Made by a program: the position numbers and the translations under genes. From contig CP094379.1 in assembly GCA_030060845.1 (NCBI GenBank), positions 255,737 to 319,736 on the forward strand: a stretch of 64,000 nucleotides of DNA, in the 5' to 3' direction. Below, one piece after another: positions 617 through 54,009 of the stretch (within the stretch, counting starts at the first letter, position 1; each line of letters begins with the position of its first letter). Origin of the DNA: Candidatus Midichloria sp. (GTDB lineage: Bacteria; Pseudomonadota; Alphaproteobacteria; Rickettsiales; Midichloriaceae). The notes beneath the pieces are model-generated. The model made no database searches. It saw nothing but the letters and a program-made list of their open reading frames with translations, and had not been told where the DNA came from.

Positions 617-763
617 GATTCTACTATGGTTTACTAATTCTCTTAGTGCTACTTTAGAGATAAATTTTCAGCAACAACTATAAAACTGGATTAACTAATC
701 AATAACATTATTTGCCTTAATCTTTGAGATAGTAAAATGAAGTATTTTAACGCCTTCTACTTT

Positions 764-928
764 TCTTCTCTCTCATTCTTCTTATATCTGGCAGAAATTA
801 TCTAGGGTATAAAATGTAAGTTATGATACATCTCTTCATGTTGAGTATATATTTCTTAAGCAAATCTATCTCAACACTTAGCTCCTTGCAAAACTCTCTC
901 TCCTCAAACTTGCTACTCTCTTCTTATC
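764..928 (-). repeat. Dispersed 165-bp repeat, copy 1
   Basis: This stretch is the near-identical reverse complement of 53789-53954, and a diverged copy lies at 22530-22665. Read on the minus strand it contains a short frame with an acidic/basic, helix-like peptide, but there is no start or stop context to support a gene. All three copies lie beside broken genes or IS debris, so it may be part of a mobile element that I cannot name. The surrounding 617-763 bases show nothing recognisable. Confidence 0.75.
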
Positions 929-21960: not shown

Positions 21961-22044
21961 ATGGCAAGTAGAATCTATTCAGTATCCTGTGATTTTTCAA
22001 TACTGTTTGGAAAAAGTGATGGAACTTTTCAAGCTGCTATAGTA
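21961..22044 (+). pseudogene. FG-GAP repeat fragment (d), cut by IS5-family left end
   Basis: The open piece reads SVSCDFSILFGKSDGTFQAAIV, with the FGKSDGTFQAA blade signature, and then runs straight into the left end of the IS5-family copy at 22045. The junction sequence CTATAGTA is the same as beside copy C. A possible ATG lies at 21961 but no signal peptide or earlier blades are seen; 21783-21960 shows no gene. Confidence 0.6.
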
Positions 22045-22057
22045 AGTGTTAGCAATC

Positions 22058-22194
22058 AGGTTAAACCAAGAGAGGATTGTGATATATTATCGTCTACAAA
22101 AGGAAAAAATGTCAGATTGTCTATATTAAATATCAGAAGATCTATTTAACAAAGAGATATTAGCAGTAATAGGAAAGCATATGACACCCATTTG
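22058..22194 (+). repeat. Left arm of 137-bp perfect inverted repeat
   Basis: By direct base comparison this arm is the exact reverse complement of 22373-22509. It consists of the IS5-family left end. Confidence 0.9.
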
Positions 22195-22372
22195 GGGCAG
22201 GCCTCCAAAAATTAGTCATTTATAAAAGTGTTCTTGTACAATGCTAAAGATGCTAAGCATATCCGTATTCTGGAAGAGATTATCCAAAAAATAAGATCCC
22301 TGGCGTACGATATATGCCTTTAACGTTACCAATGAGACTTTTTGAGACTGCCAAAAAATTTAGGGCCTCACT

Positions 22373-22509
22373 CAAATGGGTGTCATATGCTTTCCTATTA
22401 CTGCTAATATCTCTTTGTTAAATAGATCTTCTGATATTTAATATAGACAATCTGACATTTTTTCCTTTTGTAGACGATAATATATCACAATCCTCTCTTG
22501 GTTTAACCT
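22373..22509 (-). repeat. Right arm of 137-bp perfect inverted repeat
   Basis: This is the exact reverse complement of 22058-22194, with 178 bases between the arms. The lack of even one mismatch, although the coding frame is dead, points to a recent origin or gene conversion. Confidence 0.9.
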
Positions 22510-22529
22510 TGCTTGTTAATGCTTCCTAT

Positions 22530-22665
22530 AATATAAAATAAAGTTATGATGCATCTCTTCATGTTAAGTATATATTTTTTTGACAAATCTTATATATTTC
22601 AACATCTAACTATTGAGATATCCTTGCAAAATCTTCTCTTCTCAACTTTCCACTCTCTTCTTATC
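22530..22665 (-). repeat. Dispersed repeat, copy 2 (diverged and shortened)
   Basis: The stretch matches 764-928 and the reverse complement of 53789-53954 with many substitutions and small gaps; shared words include CATCTCTTCATGTTRAGTATATATTT and the final CTCTCTTCTTATC. It ends exactly where the truncated yraN frame ends. Confidence 0.65.
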
Positions 22666-22917
22666 TTAAATTCGCATAAGAAATCCAATGCTAATAAAGA
22701 GTTTTTTTGTTGTTTCGTAAATATTCTCTGTTAGGTAATCCTTTCTTGATTTAACTTCAACAAACAAAGAATAATCGTGAATTGCAATGATATCGATTTT
22801 ACCAAATCTGCTTTTCCATCTTTTTCTGATAATTTTATATCTCAAATCTACCAGAGACTTCTCAACAAGCTCTTCAGCTTCAATACCAACTCTATAATGA
22901 GACTCATATAATACCAA
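22666..22917 (-). pseudogene. yraN: YraN/UPF0102 family nuclease-like protein, 3' truncated
   Basis: The 83-residue frame has the YraN core: a run with IIRKRWKSRFGKIDIIA and then SLFVEVKSRK, the G-x-I-D-[IL]-I-A ... [FV]-V-E-V-K-x-R pattern of the restriction-endonuclease-like fold. Family members have about 115-125 residues. Here the last third is replaced by unrelated residues up to a stop at the edge of the dispersed repeat at 22665. It follows tlc by 21 bases on the same strand. The catalytic residues Asp, Glu and Lys remain, so some product could be made, but truncation makes it a likely pseudogene. The TTG at 22917 is the only plausible start. Confidence 0.7.
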
Positions 22918-53788: not shown

Positions 53789-53954
53789 GATAAGAAGAGA
53801 GTAGCAAGTTTGAGGAGAGAGAGTTTTGCAAGGAGCTAAGTGTTGAGATAGATTTGCTTAAGAAATATATACTCAACATGAAGAGATGTATCATAACTTA
53901 CATTTTATACCCTAGATAATTTCTGCCAGATGTAAGAAGAATGAGAGAGAAGAA
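53789..53954 (+). repeat. Dispersed 166-bp repeat, copy 3
   Basis: It is the reverse complement of 764-928 with only isolated differences, and a diverged relative lies at 22530-22665. It begins 4 bases after the stop of the RDD pseudogene and ends about 60 bases before the IS982 copy. Origin unknown. Confidence 0.75.
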
Positions 53955-54009
53955 GATTAATACCAACTCACAAAGTGTTAAGGAGAAGGAAAATTAAAGT
54001 TTTCTGGAT

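Follow-up and report, generated by a model that had tools for sequence, protein, structure and literature searches.

The inverted pair between murG and yraN

A unit of 484 bp, measured from IS end to IS end (22042–22525), lay between murG on one side and the convergently oriented yraN/tlc genes on the other. Unless marked as genome, coordinates refer to the window, the whole 64,000-nucleotide stretch that was analysed, corresponding to positions 255737–319736 of a single contig of 933,600 bases. Genome-wide counts cover the readable 861.6 kb of this contig, positions 64001–136000 (72 kb) being N.

The unit carried a perfect inverted repeat of 137 bp, with arm A at 22058–22194 (forward strand), arm B at 22373–22509 (reverse strand) and a centre of 178 bp (22195–22372). 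Arm comparison confirmed that the two were exact reverse complements, as first described, and that their identity broke off sharply at both ends. A repeat search could extend the arms to 146 nt at 98%. In 64 kb of the same base composition, the number of such arms expected by chance was ~1e-67. In the readable genome the repeat ranked third in length among exact inverted repeats with arms less than 5 kb apart.

The original prediction had read the arms as two IS5-family left ends, and this held. Relic A (22042–22315, forward strand) was the left end of an 845-bp IS, covering IS positions 1–273 (blastn 84.5%, supported by left-end alignment). Relic B (22359–22525, reverse strand) was the left end of the same IS, covering approximately positions 1–165; blastn recovered IS positions 159–19 in reverse (89.5%), and the left-end alignment carried the match out to the IS terminus at 22525. 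The two left ends faced outward, each ending at its own TA. The outer 16 bp of A (22042–22057, forward strand) were identical to the IS copies at 304108 and 322143 (genome). Those of B (22510–22525, reverse strand) differed from A at 5 of 16 positions and had an extra A. Between the truncated relics was a scar, a 43-bp fragment of another repeat (22316–22358, reverse strand) with 82% identity to 528748–528793 (genome), a site just beyond another IS copy.

On the left, murG was followed by a decayed coding fragment of the “GDGTFQ” type (21972–22041, forward strand), with similar fragments at 257537 and 802104 (genome). Its last four bases, TATA (22038–22041, forward strand), preceded end A, and the same four bases followed end B; the IS family apparently duplicates TA at its target site. 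On the right, end B adjoined a second repeat family (22526–22677, forward strand; 13 copies inspected), and relic B stopped exactly at the CTA of this repeat, as did the IS ends of two other loci. The second repeat family was ~150–230 bp long (CTAGGGTATAAAATGTAAGTTATGATACATC...TAAATTCGC), had other copies at 12 genome places (e.g., window 758–928 and 53789–53959), and had a CTAG at which an IS ended exactly in three loci. The yraN gene (UPF0102, 22666–22917) was cut to 83 aa, with its stop codon inside the second repeat family.

The repeat had also been flagged as a potential hairpin that could stall replication or transcription. Folding is indeed possible in single strands (−172.6 kcal/mol), but we found no sign of an effect on either process. 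A terminator scan found no intrinsic terminator inside the unit.

The parent IS and its relics

The 845-bp IS was represented in the readable genome by 83 blastn pieces, corresponding to ~60 traceable relics, most of them truncated. Its left end read GTAAGTGTTAGCAACC, preceded by TA, and its right end GGTTGTTAACAG, with TA beyond it. Six of the seven other IS copies aligned had TA on both sides, and one had CA on the left. Fragments of the broken ORF matched the IS5 family transposase model NF033580 of NCBIfam (E 3.6e-6), the 26.7 bits staying under the curated cut-off of 110 because the ORF is broken. Diverged copies matched PF13340 above its cut-off, and the transposase was thereby recognised as of the IS5 type. 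Members of the IS427-like group of the IS5 family are 800–1000 bp long, with inverted termini and a TA target duplication. The parent IS showed all three features, and we take it to belong to this group.

The parent transposase had been called dead, and the genome bears this out. The seven fullest copies, ~98% identical, all carried the same frameshifts and broken frames (genome 802223–803067, 527848–528692, 779490–780334, 625082–625926, 443456–444249, 235031–235821 and 610934–611684). Searches of the readable 861.6 kb recovered neither a PF13340 nor a PF01609 gene in intact form, nor an intact transposase of this IS type. The shared frameshifts indicate that dead copies spread or were homogenised. 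They fit either conversion among dead copies, as outlined for Wolbachia wBm in the account given by PMC3196728, or past mobilisation in trans. The IS was absent from the 23 relatives searched, and the one further genome from this genus gave no match to it.

The left ends were mosaics across the whole IS family. A derivative with an internal deletion, joining IS positions 167 and 245, was present at two loci (genome 24818–25278 and 661242–661816), which implies that the deleted form was copied. A right-right counterpart was found at 245490–246089 (genome), where a reversed IS piece is joined to a second right end, with perfect arms of 65 bp.

Identity of the arms and its possible origins

IS sequence continued in register outside and inside the tract in both relics, which allowed a direct test. 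A and B differed at 5 of 16 positions in the outer flank, at 0 of 137 in the tract and at 9 of 19 in the inner flank (tract versus flanks, Fisher p = 2e-11; run-length p about 10^-9.6). As a control we compared all 231 pairs among 22 left ends, 96 of which had at least four differences in both flanks. Among these 96, A–B was the only pair with fewer than nine tract differences, having none; all others had at least nine, and the median was 17. The nearest other copy found differed from the tract at 12 of 137 positions, and two tract positions were private to A and B. The ends of A and B are thus homologous and in register, with diverged flanks around an identical tract. Since each relic continues as in-register IS sequence beyond both borders of the tract, the event was the overwriting of a homologue and not the insertion of a segment. 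The diverged flanks, the faultless tract and the lack of a closer copy together point to arms that were homogenised with each other. The tract is also far more alike between the arms than the homologous sequence next to it and has sharp borders, as expected of a conversion tract. Of the three options first offered for the perfect arms, gene conversion is the one favoured by these differences, and “recent” as the origin of the structure is not supported, given the outer ends with their five differences and an indel. Most likely, judging from these alignments, the arms owe their identity to homogenisation in place rather than to recent origin or mobility of the unit.

A recent one-step inverted duplication of a single left end would yield perfect arms directly, but the copy would have had to land in register between different, pre-existing IS sequence on both sides of B, where the outer 16 bp as well as the inner 13 bp are in-register IS sequence; we consider this origin highly improbable. 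It is also very unlikely that the identity was created during assembly or polishing, with mis-mapped reads giving one consensus to arms that were similar but not identical. Mis-mapping between near-identical 137-bp arms can smooth out real differences. Against this, the arm ends differ sharply, the unit has distinct sequence to its left and right, divergence at the level of the family (at least nine differences) would normally be resolved by reads longer than the arm, and a 181-bp pair elsewhere in the genome, described below, has the same pattern.

The third option, a mobilisable foldback or MITE-like element transposing as one unit of two left ends, draws on the outer ends, which are both complete IS left termini next to TA, on the TATA at both sides, and on a second left-left arrangement at 901468–902397 (genome). 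However, TA is the target of the family and each relic may carry its own, and the 901468 unit is differently built. The outer ends are imperfect, and the sequences flanking the unit left and right are unrelated: on the right the unit abuts the CTA of a repeat, the other half of which is missing on the left. A search for further copies of the whole unit, as originally suggested, returned a single full-length match in the readable genome, where a MITE or foldback element would be expected in several copies. The unit was not found in 33 related genomes, one of which gave a marginal match of 51 bases. In the one further genome from this genus, alignment reached 21810, just past murG, beyond which that genome was rearranged and had its tlc on another contig, leaving no empty site to read. 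With a single copy, absence from the 33 relatives and no intact transposase in the readable 861.6 kb, such an element is unsupported, and we regard it as extremely unlikely. We saw no indication of movement of the unit, or of any effect that it might have.

The history that we consider probable is that of two IS insertions, decay by deletion, and then gene conversion between the inverted relics. The same IS would have inserted twice, separately and in opposite orientations, each time at its own TA. Deletions would then have left two outward-facing left ends 178 bp apart. Finally, non-reciprocal recombination between the inverted relics would have copied one 137-bp tract over the other, with the inner sides and the outermost 16 bp spared. 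What we infer from the pattern of differences is that conversion took place, in which direction it went and which enzymes were involved. The tract would be a trace of recombination between junk repeats, and we propose no present function for it.

With respect to direction, the first 28 bases of the tract were those of copy 537029 (genome), which also has the extra A of B. The last bases of the tract, ACCCATTTG, continued in B as GAGTGAGG, exactly as in eight other copies. Both tract borders therefore fit the context of B, and copying from B to A appears the likelier direction. This is suggestive only, and the exact history uncertain, because the left ends are mosaic throughout the family. We also considered a crossover that inverted the centre, relic A looking young in its outer part and old in its inner part, and relic B the opposite. 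This was not kept as evidence, because the same mixing of young and old was seen in many other copies.

The copying could have followed a RecA-type route or a template switch during replication; both would explain the tract and are indistinguishable here. In the second route, known as quasipalindrome correction, the fork switches template within an imperfect palindrome and copies one arm from the other without RecA-type recombination, making it a sub-mechanism of the same homogenisation. Template switching has been described as homogenising the arms of inverted repeats (PMC8604942), and at our locus the two arms fit inside a single replication fork and form a strong fold when single-stranded. 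The tract of 137 bp and the spacer of 178 bp are, however, far larger than in the yeast events shown in that study, and the long identical tracts that distant copies share in this genome would not be given by a fork-local switch. We hold this route to be possible, though rather unlikely.

RecA was present and intact. SbcD, the nuclease subunit that attacks such hairpins, was not detected in a genome search. The recG gene was split over two reading frames (genome 500323–502196) and is possibly a pseudogene. The tract suggests that recombination has acted in this small, decaying genome, whose size and gene content would fit an intracellular alphaproteobacterium of Rickettsiales type.

The generality of the pattern was assessed by a self-comparison of the genome, in which each homologous pair was scored for identical runs exceeding the length predicted from the divergence of that pair. 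The A–B pair and one further nearby inverted pair stood out. The latter had an identical inverted tract of 181 bp (genome 216482–216662 and 218055–218235) in relics 1.4 kb apart, which were diverged outside the tract and one of which had a large deletion. This is probably a second conversion tract. The 216-kb relic was part of a 797-bp duplication that placed an identical copy of it at 826 kb, so that its donor could be distant. Strong tracts were found in 2 of 4 close inverted pairs versus 15 of 971 distant pairs, in small numbers and with pairs that are not independent. A close left-left inverted pair at 901467–901647 and 902220–902400 (genome) was not homogenised (90%). The long identical runs in distant pairs imply that ectopic conversion or mosaic transposition also occurs. 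It has been our more speculative thought that, in a genome without detectable SbcD, close inverted repeats might be homogenised in preference to distant or direct copies, by a local, fork-linked process that makes long perfect palindromes out of inverted IS relics. If true, ordinary ectopic conversion would not explain such a preference, but we consider it unlikely.

Comparison with known systems

Conversion between A and B would be a clear, though unexceptional, example of a process already known. The locus would present a well-delimited natural conversion tract shared by two dead IS fragments in inverted orientation, and its limits can be placed to the single base. Perfect identity of arms need not imply recent origin or mobility, and the main value of the case lies in the caution it advises when IS activity is dated from repeat identity.

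The unit resembles MITE and foldback elements in its IS-derived inverted termini and its lack of a transposase, and differs from them in being single-copy, with unequal outer ends and no evidence of movement. With template switching in yeast it shares the change of an imperfect inverted repeat into a perfect one (PMC8604942). The scale differs: in that study, arms of at least 7 bp and spacers of at most 70 bp were searched and the longest arm among the events shown was 16 bp, giving yeast arms of 7–16 bp compared with 137 bp here.

In Wolbachia wBm, gene conversion is reported to maintain nonfunctional IS copies (Cordaux 2009, cited in PMC3004938 and described in PMC3196728). As far as these secondary descriptions go, the likeness is that dead IS copies are kept similar by conversion, the full-length copies of our IS being ~98% identical with the same frameshifts; the difference is that conversion there was genome-wide, whereas our tract involves only a single pair of neighbouring inverted relics.

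The closest parallel is ISWpi1, an IS5-family element of Wolbachia in which recombination between the terminal inverted repeats (TIRs) was accompanied by conversion, one inverted end being made identical to the other (Ling and Cordaux 2010, PMC3004938). Both cases concern an IS5-family element in an intracellular alphaproteobacterium, whose inverted IS termini recombine with conversion. In ISWpi1 recombination took place between the 23-bp ends of a single intact IS, which was inverted (PMC3004938), whereas here the 137-bp tract is common to two separate relics and inversion of the centre is no more than a possibility. By analogy, we regard the present case as probably the same kind of event, having taken place between two relics.
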